Assembly: GCA_024642205.1 (NCBI GenBank)
Contig: JAHEBQ010000011.1
Span: 1-64,000 of the forward strand
Origin: Planctomycetaceae bacterium
GTDB taxonomy: Bacteria; Planctomycetota; Planctomycetia; Pirellulales; Pirellulaceae
Reading direction: 5' to 3'
DNA length: 64,000 nt
Part shown: one piece after another, positions 40,419-55,758 of the stretch
Numbering within the stretch: position 1 is the first letter of the stretch
Layout: every line of letters starts with the position of its first letter
Translations under genes and position numbers: made by a program
Notes under the pieces: generated by a model
What the model saw: the letters and a program-made list of their open reading frames with translations, nothing else
Told to the model about the DNA's origin: nothing
The model's database searches: none

Positions 40419-41186
40419 ATGAAATGGTCGTTTCCTTTGTCCCCCAATGACACCGAACCCGAATTGGTCTCCTCGGCGGAAGCCGAATCGGATCGACCAA
40501 AATGGGAGGCCGACGAGCTTTCGCGCCGGCGTCGTTTGGAAGCAGTTTTGTTTATGTCGCGGACCCCCCTACCGAGTCGAAAACTGAGCCAGTTAGCGGA
40601 ACTCGAAGATGGAACACAGGCGCGAACGATGATCAAGGAATTAAACCGGCATTACGACAACATCGGCCGCGCGTTTCACGTCAAGCAAGTCGCTGGCGGC
40701 TTTCAATTGAGAACACGACCGCAATTTGCCGACTGGATCGGTCGGCTGGAACATGTGCCCCGTCCCCAGCGACTCTCCAATCCTGCCATGGAAACGCTCA
40801 CCGTGGTCGCTTATCGGCAACCGATCATCAAAGCCGATATCGAGGCGATTCGGGGAGTTAGTTGCGGCGAAATGCTCCGACAATTGCTCGAAAAGGGGCT
40901 TGTGAAAATCGCCGGACGCAGCGAAAAACTGGGTCGGCCCTTTTTATACGCGACGTCCAAGGAATTTCTGACACAATTCGGGCTGAGCAATCTTTCCGAA
41001 TTGCCCCGAGCCCAACAACTTTGTGGACACGGGTTGCCTGAATGGGCCAGTACTGACGAAAATCGAGATCAGCAAGCGAACATCCCTGAGACCGCCGCGA
41101 ACGAACTACCAGAAGTCCAGCCACTTAAGACCAAGTTGATTAATGTTCGGTCCACCGACTCGCGCATTAAGGAGGAAGAAGAATGA
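40419..41186 (+). CDS. scpB: Segregation and condensation protein B
   Basis: RRRRLEAVLFMSRTPLPSRKLSQLA...AFHVKQVAGGFQLRTRPQFADWI...NPAMETLTVVAYRQPIIKADIEAIRGV. Confidence 0.9.
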   Translation: MKWSFPLSPNDTEPELVSSAEAESDRPKWEADELSRRRRLEAVLFMSRTPLPSRKLSQLAELEDGTQARTMIKELNRHYDNIGRAFHVKQVAGGFQLRTRPQFADWIGRLEHVPRPQRLSNPAMETLTVVAYRQPIIKADIEAIRGVSCGEMLRQLLEKGLVKIAGRSEKLGRPFLYATSKEFLTQFGLSNLSELPRAQQLCGHGLPEWASTDENRDQQANIPETAANELPEVQPLKTKLINVRSTDSRIKEEEE

Positions 41187-41653
41187 GCCTGATAATTGAT
41201 CCACCAGCCGAGCACCATGACGACCAGCGAGAAAATTTTCCGGGCGATGAATTTTTCGACCTGGCCCCGAGCGTTCCAGGACGGCATGTCCTCGCAGAAA
41301 TCGATTTTGACTGGATCGATTTATCTCAGGCCTTTGTGAAAGCCCAAGACGAAGACGAGGACGACGACTTCGACGACGATTCGGACGACGATTCGGACGA
41401 GGATGAAGACGAAGACGATGAGTACGACGACGACGACGATGAGTACGAGGAAGAAGACGAAGATGAGTACGAGTACGTCGACGCCGGCGTCGATGAAGAG
41501 GAAGAAGAAGTCGAATATGAAGACGACGAAGATGACGACGAAGAAGAAGAAGATGACGACGAACTTGAGGAAGACGAATGGGAAGAAGTCGATGACGACG
41601 AAGATGATTTCGACGACGACGACTGGGACGACGAAGACGACGACTGGGATTAA
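41183..41653 (+). CDS. Hyper-acidic Asp/Glu-rich hypothetical protein
   Basis: ATGA overlap with scpB stop; ~55 non-acidic-type residues then a ~100-aa D/E tract. Confidence 0.65.
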   Translation: MSLIIDPPAEHHDDQRENFPGDEFFDLAPSVPGRHVLAEIDFDWIDLSQAFVKAQDEDEDDDFDDDSDDDSDEDEDEDDEYDDDDDEYEEEDEDEYEYVDAGVDEEEEEVEYEDDEDDDEEEEDDDELEEDEWEEVDDDEDDFDDDDWDDEDDDWD

Positions 41654-49014: not shown

Positions 49015-49656
49015 CTAGTTACTCACTCTCAGAGTCGAACGATCGGCGATCTCCTGGCGTTTCTGGGCGTAGTACAGGAGAAAATTGGCTCTTGGATCGA
49101 ACACGCGTATATCCTGGCCCACATCTTCGGGGTGTGGGGTCAGCGTGTATTCCTTGAACAGGCCTTTCGCCTTGCCCGCCGAGAGCGCGCCCCGGGAGCG
49201 ACTTTGAATGAATGCGAGCCACATTCGGTCGGGAAGCGATCCCATGTCGGATTTGGGAACATTTTGAGCGTAGGTGTTTGGTTTCAGTGGCGCCATCTGC
49301 AACGTGAAAAACGAAAAACAGATGAAGACGCACGCGATCCAGATAGAGAGTACGGATCGGCCGACCAGTTCCGTGATAGTGTCGAATTTCAGGCGATAGG
49401 CGCTGGCGACGTCCGTAATACCGCGCAAGATAAAGAAAGCCAGAAGGAATACCGCCCAGACAGCAAGAAAATCGTAAAGCGATCGGTAGGTCCTGTTGAC
49501 GTCGAGTAACCGGTCGGCAACGGGTTCATAAATGCTGCTGGCCAGCATCGCTGCTAACAGCAGATTGACCAGGGTGATCAAGTTACTCCAGAGACCGAAC
49601 CACCAGGTGCTGGCAACGACCAGGACGAATAACATTATGGCGATGAGAGTCAGCAT
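49015..49656 (-). CDS. CvpA-like membrane protein
   Basis: Four predicted TM segments in the N-terminal 140 aa; CvpA-like topology. Confidence 0.55.
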   Translation of the reverse strand: MLTLIAIMLFVLVVASTWWFGLWSNLITLVNLLLAAMLASSIYEPVADRLLDVNRTYRSLYDFLAVWAVFLLAFFILRGITDVASAYRLKFDTITELVGRSVLSIWIACVFICFSFFTLQMAPLKPNTYAQNVPKSDMGSLPDRMWLAFIQSRSRGALSAGKAKGLFKEYTLTPHPEDVGQDIRVFDPRANFLLYYAQKRQEIADRSTLRVSN

Positions 49657-49752: not shown

Positions 49753-51051
49753 CTACGATTTCAAAACGCGCTGCAACTCCTCGACGGATGTCCTTCCGCT
49801 GGCGACCATCACAATTCCTTCCATCTGCATGGAAATATGTCCGTGTCGTTTCGCGATGGCGGACAGCTGACCGGCTTGTGGTTTGTGGACCAAGGCGTTG
49901 CGCAGTTCGGGATTGATTACCAGCATTTCAAACAACCCCGTGCGGCCCCGGTACCCGATCCCCGAGCACTTCGGACACGGCTCAATTTCTTTTTCGTTCT
50001 CGTCGACCATTCCGGGTTGAAAAACAAAGGGCTTGTACAGTTGAGCCACACGACCTGGTGGCAAACCCAGTTTCTGCAGCAACGTCGGGTGCGGTTGGAA
50101 ACCGATTTTGCATGTCTCGCAAAGCAATCGAATCAGCCGCATGGAAACGACGCAGGTTAATATCTCGGCAAACTTCTCGACATCCGGTTTCAGCAACAGG
50201 ACACGCAGCATCGCGTCAATGCAGTGTTTTCCGGGGATCCGGGTAAACATCGGAATCCGCCTTTTGTTCGACAGATCGATGATCTGGTTCAACAGGTCGC
50301 CGTCGCTCAGTTCCGGAAACGCCAGGACATCCGGTTGCTTGAGCAGGAGCTGCGTGATCGGCGACATGGCGTTTTCGCCCTTGGCCGGATCGAACTCGAC
50401 GGGATAAATATTGATGACTTCAGGTTCGAGTTGCCCTTTTTCTTCAATCACGAAATAGTCGCGAGTCAGTCGATCGCAGGCGTCCAGGACACCGCGCCAG
50501 GCAGTGGTGTATCCCTCGCCGGGAACGGCGGAAACCAGCACCATTCCCGTTTTTGGATCATTGAGAATTGGCTGGAGCTGTTTGATCATGCTGGCGCGCA
50601 TGCCCAGCTGTTGGGCCGTGTCGAGGGGCGGTCGCTTATAGTCCAGGTAAAGTGCCACGCGCTCGCCAGATTGAATGCCCTGCGAAACGAGCTTGAATTT
50701 TTGTCGGTTTTTGAGGTACATCGTCCCGAAACTCCCTTCCTGGCGCGCCCGACGTTCGCGGTAGTCGAGTCCGGCCAGCTGTTTGAGAGTCGCCAGGAGG
50801 TAGTCTCCCGTCTCACGATCCATCGGAGTTCCGGAATGCCAAAGTCCATCAATTTGAAAACGGAGCACGACCTGCTGGGGGTTAAAGTCCAGGACGGTAA
50901 CATCGGCGTCTTTGATAATGGCTTCGGCGACCAATTCGGTGGCGGGTTCAAAACCAGGCGATGGCTTGACGATTTTCAAGTTCGTTTTCTGCTCTTGAGG
51001 CGTGGCTCCGGCGGCAGTGAATTCGATCGGCGGTATGAATTCGTCAGGCAT
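49753..51051 (-). CDS. GspE/PilB-like type II/IV secretion ATPase homologue with degenerate catalytic motifs (pseudo-ATPase B)
   Basis: GspE-like N2/C domains and zinc finger CETCKIGF...CPKCSGIGYRGRTGLFEML; Walker A replaced by AVPGEGYTT. Confidence 0.85.
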   Translation of the reverse strand: MPDEFIPPIEFTAAGATPQEQKTNLKIVKPSPGFEPATELVAEAIIKDADVTVLDFNPQQVVLRFQIDGLWHSGTPMDRETGDYLLATLKQLAGLDYRERRARQEGSFGTMYLKNRQKFKLVSQGIQSGERVALYLDYKRPPLDTAQQLGMRASMIKQLQPILNDPKTGMVLVSAVPGEGYTTAWRGVLDACDRLTRDYFVIEEKGQLEPEVINIYPVEFDPAKGENAMSPITQLLLKQPDVLAFPELSDGDLLNQIIDLSNKRRIPMFTRIPGKHCIDAMLRVLLLKPDVEKFAEILTCVVSMRLIRLLCETCKIGFQPHPTLLQKLGLPPGRVAQLYKPFVFQPGMVDENEKEIEPCPKCSGIGYRGRTGLFEMLVINPELRNALVHKPQAGQLSAIAKRHGHISMQMEGIVMVASGRTSVEELQRVLKS

Positions 51052-51111
51052 GAATTAGGTTCGTCGTTTGAGTGAAAAAAAGTGGGTTCGTCGTCTGGAG
51101 AGCGGCTTTGT

Positions 51112-52884
51112 TTAAGGCTGTTCCTTCAGCACTCGCTGGGCTTCCGCCAACGACGTCACGCCCAACAACACGAGCTTGTAGGCCTGGTTGGCAATCGATT
51201 TCTTGCCAAGTTTGACAGCTGCCTGTTCAACGGCTGCGATCTGCGGGTTGTTTTTGATGAAAACACGGAGATTGTCATCTAGCGAAATCATCTCGAATAC
51301 CGCAATCCGGCCGATGTAGCCAATTCCACCACACGTTTCACAGGGGGGAAATTCGATCTCTCGCCCTTTTTCATCGACCCGCTGTTCGGGTGGCGGGAGT
51401 TTCCAGGGATTGTAGATCGTACCCTGTGTTTTTGGGTCACCCCCGAGTTGCTCGATGACTTTGGGTTGGACCCGTACTTCGACGCGGCAGGCTGTACACA
51501 AGCGCCGGAGCAACCGTTGGCAGATAATGTTGTTCATCGCCTGCAGGAATTGCTCCTGATTCCCTGCCAGGGAATACATCCGAAGAAGTGCCTCGGCTGC
51601 CGACTTGGCTTGAGTCCGCAACAACAGTGAACGGTTCTGCTTGACCACCTGGAGTGTCAGGAGATCCATCGCTTCCTTGTTTTCGACCTGTGGAATGGCC
51701 AACATGTCCGGTTGGGTCAACAACATGGTTTTGAGGACATAGACCTGGTTCTTTTCCGTCGATTTCTCATAACGATGGATCACGATGTTTTCCAGCACCG
51801 TTTCGGTCTCTTCCTCCGTGATCACGGCGACACAGTCGCGCGTCAGCCGGTCGGCAGTGACCAGTGCCCCTTGCCACGACGATGTCAGACCGCCTCCGGG
51901 CGGAGCCGAAATGATTGTGCCACCGGGTTTGTCGACGGACTTTTTGAATCGTTCAACCATCTCGGGGAACATGCCCAGTTGCGACAGGGATAGCGCTTCT
52001 TTGGCGGTGATGTCGTATTTGATTTGAACGCGTTCGCCGGTCGGAACACCTTGGGACGTGACGGTGATCACCGCTTTCCCAAGTTCCGATTTGAATGAAA
52101 GTTTGGCTGACTGGCGGGCGCGACGCTCAGCGGGTTTCAGTCCCGCCAGATACTTCAGGCTGGCCAACACCGCGTCGCCGGTTTCGCGATCCCACGAATC
52201 CAGCGGGTGCCACGTACCATCGACGAGAATTCGCATGGACACGGCGTCGCGCGTGAAGTCCATCAATAACTGCTCGGTTCGCTTGAACTGCGTCTCGTGG
52301 AGCAGTGATTTGAGTTCCGTGAAGCCACCGGTCTGCCGGGCGCGAATCAAGTTGGCCTGTTTTTCAGCCGGATCGCTGCCGCCGGGACTGAAATCAATGA
52401 AAGCGCCTTCGTCCTGCGGCAGTGCTTCCGCGGCCGGAACTTCACCTGGTTTGAGCTTGAGGTGCTGTTTGATCGAGGCATCGGCTTTAAACCGGCTCCG
52501 TCGGATGAAAAAGTACGTCAGAAACGGAACGAAGGAAAGGACGAGGTAAACGGGAAAGCCTGCCATGAAAAACGGAACGGAAATCACGACCAGAAACCCA
52601 ATCAGGAAGCAAAAAACAACGATCGGATTCCAGATTTCCGACGGAAGTCTGGTGCGACCGCCGATTTTCATCGTATCGCGATTGATCCAGTCGGCGACAC
52701 GAACCCACAGCAAAAACACAAGCGCGATCAACAACAGCTTCCACCAGGAAAGATAGCCACCGGGACCACGCTCGAAATTCTGTGCGTTGTCGAGGCCCTG
52801 GGCCAACAATTTGTCAGCAAACGGTACGAGCAAAATCGCGACCGTCGCCGCCAGCAAAAATACCAGTCGATAGCGGCGAGCCAT
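51112..52884 (-). CDS. Membrane-anchored GspE/PilB-like homologue with degenerate catalytic motifs (pseudo-ATPase A)
   Basis: N-terminal TM segments, GspE-like C-terminal half with CTACRVEV...CETCGGIGYIGRIAVFEMI; Walker A replaced by APPGGGLTS; TAATG overlap with the upstream pilT stop. Confidence 0.85.
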   Translation of the reverse strand: MARRYRLVFLLAATVAILLVPFADKLLAQGLDNAQNFERGPGGYLSWWKLLLIALVFLLWVRVADWINRDTMKIGGRTRLPSEIWNPIVVFCFLIGFLVVISVPFFMAGFPVYLVLSFVPFLTYFFIRRSRFKADASIKQHLKLKPGEVPAAEALPQDEGAFIDFSPGGSDPAEKQANLIRARQTGGFTELKSLLHETQFKRTEQLLMDFTRDAVSMRILVDGTWHPLDSWDRETGDAVLASLKYLAGLKPAERRARQSAKLSFKSELGKAVITVTSQGVPTGERVQIKYDITAKEALSLSQLGMFPEMVERFKKSVDKPGGTIISAPPGGGLTSSWQGALVTADRLTRDCVAVITEEETETVLENIVIHRYEKSTEKNQVYVLKTMLLTQPDMLAIPQVENKEAMDLLTLQVVKQNRSLLLRTQAKSAAEALLRMYSLAGNQEQFLQAMNNIICQRLLRRLCTACRVEVRVQPKVIEQLGGDPKTQGTIYNPWKLPPPEQRVDEKGREIEFPPCETCGGIGYIGRIAVFEMISLDDNLRVFIKNNPQIAAVEQAAVKLGKKSIANQAYKLVLLGVTSLAEAQRVLKEQP

Positions 52885-54125
52885 TAAATAATTCCAGGTT
52901 GCGAAACGTCGATGCCTTTGAGCTTCATCTTCAGTTCTTCTTTGTTGGGTGCGACCTGGAACGCCGTGGGACGGTCGATGAGTTCGTCATCGATCAGGCC
53001 TTTGAGGCTCATCGTAAAGTCCTGCATGCCTTCCTCCGCACCGATCCGAATTGCGTCACTCAGGTTGTGGTCGCGTTCTTCAAGGATCAACTTCTTGACG
53101 GTCGGGTTGAACGTCATGATTTCACACGTCGGAACCCGTCCGATTTTGGGGTCAATGGCTTTGAGCAGCTTCTGAGCCACAATCGCCTTCATGTTCATGG
53201 CGATGGCACCCCGGATCGCGCCGTGCATTTCTTCGGGGAACAGATCGAGAATACGTCCGATCGTCGACGGCGCGGTCGAGGCGTGAATGGTCCCGAACAC
53301 CAAGTGCCCGGTTTCCGCGGCGTGAATCGCCGTCATGAAGGTCTCTTCGTCTCGCAGTTCGCCGACGAGGATGATGTCCGGGTCTTCACGAACCGCGTGC
53401 TTCATGCCGACACCAAAATCGACGACGTCGATTCCGACTTCACGCTGGTTGATCAGGCACTTGTCATCGGTGAACACGAATTCAATCGGGTCTTCCAGCG
53501 TGAGAATGTGTTTTGAGTAGATGCGATTGATGTAGTTCAACATCGATGCGATCGTGGTACTCTTGCCCGAGCCGGTGACACCTGCGAGCAGGATCATTCC
53601 CTGATCAAAATGACACAGCGTTTCCATTGCCGGAGGCAGGTAGAGGCCTTCGAAGTTCGGAATGAAATTGTTCACACGCCGTGCCACCAGTCCGATTTTT
53701 CCCAGCTGTTGAAGCATGTTGACACGGAATCGCCAATTTACACCGTCGACATCGATTGTGTACGCAAAGTCAGCTCCGCCCTCGTGATCGAAAATATCGC
53801 GAGTCCGCTCGTTCATCATGGGAAACAACAGTCGAGCCATTTCTTCGACTTCGACCGGTGCCCGGTTCAGTTCTTTCAACGTGCCGTTGACGCGGACGAT
53901 CGGCGGTTTGCCTACTTTCATGTGAAGGTCGGAACCTTCGAGCTTGACCAGGGCCCGCAGGTACTTATCAACCGGTTTTTCGGTTTGCTTTTCGACAAAC
54001 CGGCTGACCATTCGCTCAACCGCCTCATCTTCACGCTCTTGCAGCGTCTTGCCGTTAGAAACGCCGTTCGACGCGTCCGAGCTTTTCGTTTGAGAGTTCG
54101 GTGTTTTTTCTTTCGGCTTGGACAT
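52884..54125 (-). CDS. pilT: PilT-like twitching motility/retraction ATPase
   Basis: LLAGVTGSGKSTTIASMLNYIN, LEDPIEFVF, REDPDIILVGELRDEETFMTAIHAAETGHLVFGTIHA. Confidence 0.92.
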   Translation of the reverse strand: MSKPKEKTPNSQTKSSDASNGVSNGKTLQEREDEAVERMVSRFVEKQTEKPVDKYLRALVKLEGSDLHMKVGKPPIVRVNGTLKELNRAPVEVEEMARLLFPMMNERTRDIFDHEGGADFAYTIDVDGVNWRFRVNMLQQLGKIGLVARRVNNFIPNFEGLYLPPAMETLCHFDQGMILLAGVTGSGKSTTIASMLNYINRIYSKHILTLEDPIEFVFTDDKCLINQREVGIDVVDFGVGMKHAVREDPDIILVGELRDEETFMTAIHAAETGHLVFGTIHASTAPSTIGRILDLFPEEMHGAIRGAIAMNMKAIVAQKLLKAIDPKIGRVPTCEIMTFNPTVKKLILEERDHNLSDAIRIGAEEGMQDFTMSLKGLIDDELIDRPTAFQVAPNKEELKMKLKGIDVSQPGII

Positions 54126-54656: not shown

Positions 54657-55758
54657 ATGGATTCCGAACTAACCGACCGATCGCAAGCGATTCTTCAGCG
54701 CATCACGCAACTTCGAGACAGTCTTTGACTACGATGCAAAACGAACGTCCATTGCCGGGATAGAAGCACAGATGGCGGCCCCCAATTTTTGGGATAATCA
54801 GGAGTCTGCCCAGGAAACGGTCGGGCGTCTCAAATCAGTGAAAGCCATTGTGGATCCGATGACCGAGCTCAATGCATCCGGTGAGGATCTTGAAGCCTTG
54901 ATCGAAATGGCGGAAGAAGACCGCTCGATCGAGACCGAAATTCGCCGGGAAATTGAGTCGTTGGAAGAACGACTGGACCGTCTTGAACTCAAGGCACTGC
55001 TCAATGGCCCGTACGACAATTCCGGGGCAATTCTGACGATCCACGCCCGTGATGGCGGCACCGATGCAAATGACTGGGCCGAGATGATGCTTCGCATGTA
55101 TACGTCATGGGCTCAGAAAAACGATTACGAAGTTGTTTTGTTCGATCGCAATGACAATGACGAAGCCGGCATCAATAGCGCTTCGATCGCGATTCGCGGC
55201 CCGATGGCCTACGGCTATCTCAAAAGCGAAACCGGTTTGCATCGCCTGGTCAGAATCAGCCCTTTCAATTCCGAAGGCAAGCGTCAAACGAGTTTCGCAG
55301 CGGTCGATGTCTCCCCGGAGATTTCTGATAACGTCGAGATCGACATCGATGAGAAAGATGTGCGCGTCGATACCTTTCGCGCCAGTGGAGCTGGTGGACA
55401 ACACGTCAATAAAACCGACAGTGCGATTCGGCTGACACATCTTCCCACCGCGACCGTCGTCCAATGTCAAAGCCAACGCAGCCAGCATAAGAATCGGGCC
55501 CAAGCCTGGAAAATGCTGCGCGCACAACTGGCCCGCTTGCAGGACGAGAAGCGGGAGGCCGAAGAAGCTGTCAAATACCAAAACAAATCCCGTGTCGGAT
55601 TCGGATCGCAAATCCGCAACTACTTTCAACACCCCGACCAGCGCGTCAAGGATACGCGAACCGGTTACAGCATGGGCGACTTCCACAAGGTTCTCGATGG
55701 AGAAATCCAGGGCTTCCTCGATGCGTTGCTGAACTGGCGTGCGAAAACAGAACGCTAG
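54657..55758 (+). CDS. prfB: Peptide chain release factor 2 with programmed +1 frameshift (ORF1 54657-54728, ORF2 from 54727)
   Basis: MDSELTDRSQAILQRITQLRDSL-stop at CTT TGA C (54723-54729); +1 frame continues LDYDAKRTSIAGIEAQMAAPNFWDNQESAQ...; GAGGQHVNKTDSAIRLTHLP. Confidence 0.93.

Follow-up and report, generated by a model that had tools for sequence, protein, structure and literature searches.

Within the window, by which we mean the whole stretch of 64,000 nucleotides of a Planctomycetaceae bacterium that was analysed, there is a gene module made of an intact PilT, a membrane-anchored protein (A) and a CvpA-like protein, to which a second, soluble protein (B) is added in some Pirellulaceae. 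Both A and B have the known PilB/GspE fold without its defining catalytic features. With a probability of roughly one half, A would be a non-hydrolysing, membrane-anchored ring which docks and regulates the PilT encoded next to it, with CvpA as its partner in the membrane.

Gene content of the module and fold of A and B

The genes follow each other on the minus strand in the order pilT, A, B and CvpA-like gene (Table 1). An earlier note, made from the letters alone, had given the coordinates of the open reading frames of A, B and PilT; these were found to be exact, and all three frames lie on the minus strand. The same holds for its description of the adjacent PilT as intact, since the motifs are present and the TIGR01420 cut-off is passed. 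The CvpA-like gene after B, missing from that note, is the fourth member of the module. In the window, the stop codon of pilT and the start codon of A share one base (TAATG).

Table 1. Positions of the module genes and of their motifs in the window
Feature	Position	Strand	Basis
PilT-family ATPase, first gene of the module	52884..54125	-	TIGR01420, 385.9 bits (cut-off 319.1)
PilT motifs GVTGSGKST, DPDIILVGELRD and GTIHA, all intact	52884..54125	-	
Protein A, 590 aa, membrane-anchored pseudo-ATPase of PilB/GspE fold	51112..52884	-	PF00437, 115 bits
A, N-terminal membrane domain, helices 2-19, 47-78, 82-102, 106-134	52459..52884	-	prediction
A, Walker A position APPGGGLTSSW, Leu333 in place of Lys	51874..51906	-	alignment
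A, Walker B position QPDMLAIPQVEN, Gln399 in place of the catalytic Glu	51679..51714	-	alignment
A, Cys4 zinc-binding segment, C463, C466, C515, C518	51331..51498	-	alignment
Protein B, 432 aa, soluble paralogue of PilB/GspE fold, no membrane domain	49753..51051	-	PF00437, 100 bits
B, Walker A position AVPGEGYTTAW, Tyr181 in place of Lys	50497..50529	-	alignment
B, Walker B position QPDVLAFPELSD, Glu247 kept at the catalytic Glu position	50302..50337	-	alignment
B, Cys4 zinc-binding segment, C311, C314, C359, C362	49966..50121	-	alignment
CvpA-like (Colicin_V family) polytopic membrane protein, last in the module	49015..49656	-	PF02674, 30.7 bits (cut-off 29.3)

The GspE/PilB-type layout that had been proposed for A and B is borne out. 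Both proteins match the Pfam family T2SSE (PF00437, cut-off 24.9 bits) far above the threshold, and both can be aligned over the full length of the PilF, PilB and GspE cores in the PDB (E values of 1e-17 to 1e-29). Furthermore, AlphaFold models built from family alignments have a mean pLDDT of 91.4 for A and 93.7 for B, and their best PDB matches are PilB and PilF cores, with target-normalised TM scores of up to 0.84-0.86. For these predicted models the TM score is about 0.85 against PilB and about 0.6 against PilT, which places both proteins with the PilB/GspE type and not with the PilT type. On the other hand, the equivalog profiles for PilB and GspE give only some 103-132 bits, below their cut-offs of 617-676. 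T2SSE is the sole Pfam match of A, and a match of the VirB4/DotO type is absent.

What A and B share with PilB, GspE and PilF is the fold, the order of the N2 and C-terminal domains, the Cys4 zinc domain and the conserved C-terminal residues. They differ in lacking the ATP-site residues and the N-terminal PilB/GspE domain (in A, the membrane domain stands in its place), and in being linked to pilT and cvpA instead of a platform gene. A search of an open-access paper library, with few subscription papers and no bioRxiv preprints, gave no report of PilB/GspE pseudo-ATPases.

The ATP site and its conservation

Alignment with canonical PilB and GspE proteins confirms that the Walker A lysine is replaced in A as well as in B (Table 1), and that the histidine of the His box has become Gln425 in A and Pro273 in B. 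The Asp-box glutamate is Ile355 in A and is kept in B as Glu203. The earlier note had also held Walker B to be destroyed in both proteins. This is correct for A; B, in which both Glu247 and Glu203 are kept, is less damaged than was implied. In this class of ATPases a glycine replaces the usual Mg-coordinating acid of Walker B (PMC5424180). All zinc-finger cysteines are present as described, four of four in each protein. A canonical Walker A elsewhere in A and B, which the earlier note had named as a possible refutation, was not seen; the whole fold aligns with PilB, the dead P-loop included.

We then asked whether these replacements are particular to one genome. When 85,462 species genomes were scanned with patterns that favour Pirellulales, 72 loci were obtained, mostly named as Pirellulales or other planctomycetes; all but one of the matched records are labelled planctomycete. 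The Walker A lysine is absent from every one of the 72 first-position copies of Pirellulales, the window included, and is replaced by Leu (63 copies), Met (8) or Phe (1). Among the second, B-type copies, 10 of 11 lack it (Tyr in 7, Leu in 3, Lys in 1). The one B-type copy with the lysine (PGDGKTTLW, in locus L207) has its other ATP-site motifs altered. In the named Pirellulales loci, 61 of 62 linked PilTs have an intact Walker A; the remaining one is truncated where its contig ends. The start of A overlaps the stop of pilT by one or four bases in 43 of the 54 loci with clear starts, and these overlapping codons suggest coupled synthesis of the two proteins.

Strain-specific decay is rejected because the loss is order-wide. 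Orthologues with an intact GKT motif, which might have pointed to such decay, do occur, in other families.

Pairwise dN/dS values, calculated for close pairs with unsaturated sites, are about 0.04-0.15 for A and B and about 0.01-0.12 for PilT; A and B, although non-catalytic, are under purifying selection. It could be argued from the missing catalytic residues that A and B are decaying, non-functional relics. The data refute this, as full-length reading frames occur throughout the order, dN/dS is about 0.04-0.15, the zinc cysteines are nearly invariant and the operon is conserved. Sequencing error is likewise rejected, given the order-wide conservation and the low dN/dS. The proposal that A and B are non-hydrolysing paralogues, kept by selection, is well supported by the loss of lysine in 72/72 and 10/11 copies, by the low dN/dS and by the frequent translational coupling to an intact PilT.

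Among the alignment columns that are conserved in intact members, the dead copies have lost, to a varying degree, not only the lysine, but also residues of the Asp box, the Gly-Glu pair and the His box. The DG motif, the Cys4 zinc site and a pair of arginines preceding it (R449 and R452) are kept. The C-terminal columns G548, E554 and R557, of the set G..T...E..R, are nearly invariant, and it is the ATP-site columns that vary. Selection thus seems, as far as the columns tell, to act on structure and interfaces and not on the handling of ATP.

Some features of the pocket could be read differently, namely that A and B bind a nucleotide or another ligand in a remodelled site and gate PilT in the manner of a switch. 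The P-loop glycine before the lost lysine is invariant, and the Ser/Thr of the loop often remains; among the 11 B-type copies, Glu203 and Glu209 never vary, and 6 retain Glu247. We think such a switch quite improbable, in view of the change of lysine to Leu, Met or Phe in all first copies of Pirellulales, of the Arg, Lys or Gln found at the Ser/Thr position in about one third of these copies, and of the drift of the Asp-box and His-box residues.

The earlier note had also considered a mixed ring with PilT; in it, A, B or both would be non-hydrolysing subunits that tune the stroke of PilT. The genes stand in tandem and are translationally coupled, and inactive subunits are known from otherwise active rings of other ATPase families. 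This idea is weakened by two observations which make it less likely: A and B are of the PilB/GspE type with a Cys4 zinc domain, PilT belonging to a different branch, and the second arginine of the RxRIDG motif, conserved in intact members, is gone in nearly all dead copies. The motif lies in the domain that is expected to act across the subunit interface; its first arginine remains in most dead copies, both arginines being candidates, from sequence columns, for the two arginine fingers of the PilB/GspE clade. Moreover, the membrane anchors of A do not suit a soluble PilT ring. We consider a mixed ring very improbable.

Duplication and relatives in other planctomycete groups

The earlier note had presented A and B as a pair, which is not the basic unit: most Pirellulales loci have one such gene, and the tandem is limited to part of the Pirellulaceae. 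The pair as basic unit was rejected and the single gene taken as ancestral. About ten further loci have the tandem, most of them under the label Pirellulaceae (L190, L196, L199, L201-L203, L205-L207 and probably L204), of which L190 is closest to the window, with 53% identity in A and 59% in B. In a first tree, A and B of the window lie inside the Pirellulales clade (support 100), beside a single-copy relative (96). In a second tree both are again in the Pirellulales clade, yet they are not grouped together; a constraint that joins them was not rejected (p = 0.25). The placement in the trees and the lack of a membrane domain in B indicate that the pair is a Pirellulaceae-specific duplication of an older, already dead gene, after which B would have lost the membrane domain.

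Outside the order, the state of the active site differs between groups. In f3, a sister family belonging to the same class, the orthologue of A has a fully intact active site in 14 of 14 copies; its N-terminal domain is the same and so, in most cases, is its CvpA neighbour. The inactivity of A is therefore a feature of certain lineages. A second copy in f3, unlinked and soluble, is dead in 19 of 19 cases. The A of f3 is often not linked to PilT; the module PilT is found in every f3 genome tested, with 60-67% identity, even when unlinked. Since A is intact there and often apart from PilT, it may be an engine of its own in this family. One f3 genome (G273, loci L082 and L252) has no A and keeps the module PilT and a dead B-like copy.

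The arrangement pilT-A-cvpA is also present in other planctomycete classes, where 18 of 20 copies of A are without the lysine. The tree of the ATPase domain joins all dead copies, even when the motif columns are removed (support 97/99), on long branches; catalysis may have been lost once or repeatedly. In this tree, a constraint holding the class together was not rejected (p = 0.10), and one that groups f3 A with Pirellulales to the exclusion of the second f3 copy was rejected (p = 0.004); in the tree of the N-terminal domain, the grouping of f3 A with Pirellulales was not rejected (p = 0.32). A small number of genomes from several planctomycete groups have hisF upstream of pilT (L049, L066, L087-L089 and L091), which suggests that hisF-pilT-A-cvpA is an ancient gene order. 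We were not able to find a strict co-occurrence of PilT and A, as similar PilTs stand alone in planctomycete genomes without A; these standalone homologues score like the PilTs of the modules in other classes.

Across a phylum, one PilB-like protein with a membrane anchor thus occurs beside PilT in intact, dead and duplicated form, and this amounts to a natural experiment on which parts of such a motor serve structure and which serve power.

Membrane domain, CvpA and the proposed role

The N-terminal transmembrane helices noticed earlier in A are predicted to be four (Table 1), and the membrane domain is conserved whether A is intact or dead. Of 296 planctomycete genomes, 57 have a match to a profile of this domain; it is nearly always a single match per genome, in a frame long enough for a fused ATPase domain. 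The cvpA gene follows A in nearly all related loci, in the order as well as in other planctomycete classes. Among 63 scorable Pirellulales loci, 58 are concordant for the membrane domain and cvpA (54 with both, 4 with neither) and 5 are discordant; the p-value of this association, 0.0006, is indicative only, as the loci are related and kinship was not corrected for. The concordance is a hint that A's helices function together with CvpA. By its score the last gene of the module belongs to the known CvpA (Colicin_V) family; what sets it apart is its fixed place beside pilT and A. The CvpA proteins of other planctomycete classes carry longer C-terminal extensions.

In five loci (L192, L195, L197, L200 and L092) pilT is followed by a single, soluble dead copy without the membrane domain; the first four of these have a downstream gene for a predicted membrane protein of a different family, and no cvpA was found in them. 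These few copies mean that the membrane anchor is not strictly needed. Four further loci (L187, L189, L193 and L208), from Thermoguttaceae and an uncultured planctomycete, three of them sampled from ruminant gut, have an A with the membrane domain and no cvpA detected within the flank.

How could a dead ATPase of this kind serve PilT? An auxiliary partner has a precedent in PilU, a motor that depends on PilT (PMC6762196, PMC6821130). Here too the operon partner of A is a genuine PilT; PilU, on the other hand, is itself an ATPase of the PilT type, and A and B are dead and of the PilB type. A second comparison, as an analogy only, is the Dot/Icm system of the VirB11-VirB4 type, where DotB, which is PilT-like and forms a soluble hexamer, docks to the ring of DotO at the membrane and alters it (PMC7029142). 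DotO and VirB4 belong to another family and are normally ATPases, whereas the ring in our case would be a dead PilB.

Taking this analogy together with the probable synthesis of A and PilT from one transcript, we propose that A forms a ring (hexameric in all likelihood, as in PilB and GspE), which would be anchored in the inner membrane by the N-terminal helices together with CvpA. This ring would be a fixed docking and regulatory platform on which the PilT hexamer made from the same transcript stacks, as DotB does on DotO, and PilT would do all of the ATP-driven work. B, where present, might be an additional soluble layer or an adaptor between A and PilT; docking to PilT, which the earlier note had raised, fits. 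The target of PilT could be the base of a type IV pilus encoded elsewhere, or the CvpA complex itself.

Genes for a platform, pilins or a secretin were not seen with the module or among its conserved neighbours, in line with what had been noted for the surroundings of A and B. The platform (T2SSF) and secretin genes of this genome are on other contigs, as are several PilB/GspE genes, so one could imagine that A, which keeps the conserved C-terminal region of PilB, competes with a real PilB at the base of a pilus or type II secretion system elsewhere or slows it, with PilT as an additional retraction motor. We regard this as unlikely: no linkage to such genes was seen in the loci examined, and a ring anchored in the membrane seems ill-suited to exchange with a soluble PilB. 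Docking of PilT on A remains our preferred reading, with the intact and often unlinked A of f3, the PilTs that stand alone and the few loci with a soluble single copy as points against it.

A more far-reaching version of it, which we put forward tentatively and with more doubt than confidence, is that the module is an undescribed inner-membrane motor of planctomycetes, in which the PilT hexamer would work against a dead PilB ring and CvpA, without pilins or a platform. If so, a pilus-type motor was put to a task other than a pilus, and the active state of A was lost, or a dead copy fixed, differently between lineages. The module also opens a testable way into the planctomycete surface, which is poorly understood; within the phylum, Planctopirus limnophila can be genetically modified. 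The locus could not be matched to Plim_0401-0410, a secretion operon that is essential in P. limnophila. The surface in question bears crateriform pits and fibres, for which an uptake of polysaccharides has been suggested (PMC8303584, PMC11958385).

Two other genes of the window were noted in passing. The gene prfB for release factor 2 (54660-55758, plus strand) has the classic programmed frameshift site CTTTGAC near position 54723. Directly after scpB there is an open reading frame of 156 amino acids (41183-41653, plus strand), the C-terminal two thirds of which are extremely rich in Asp and Glu.
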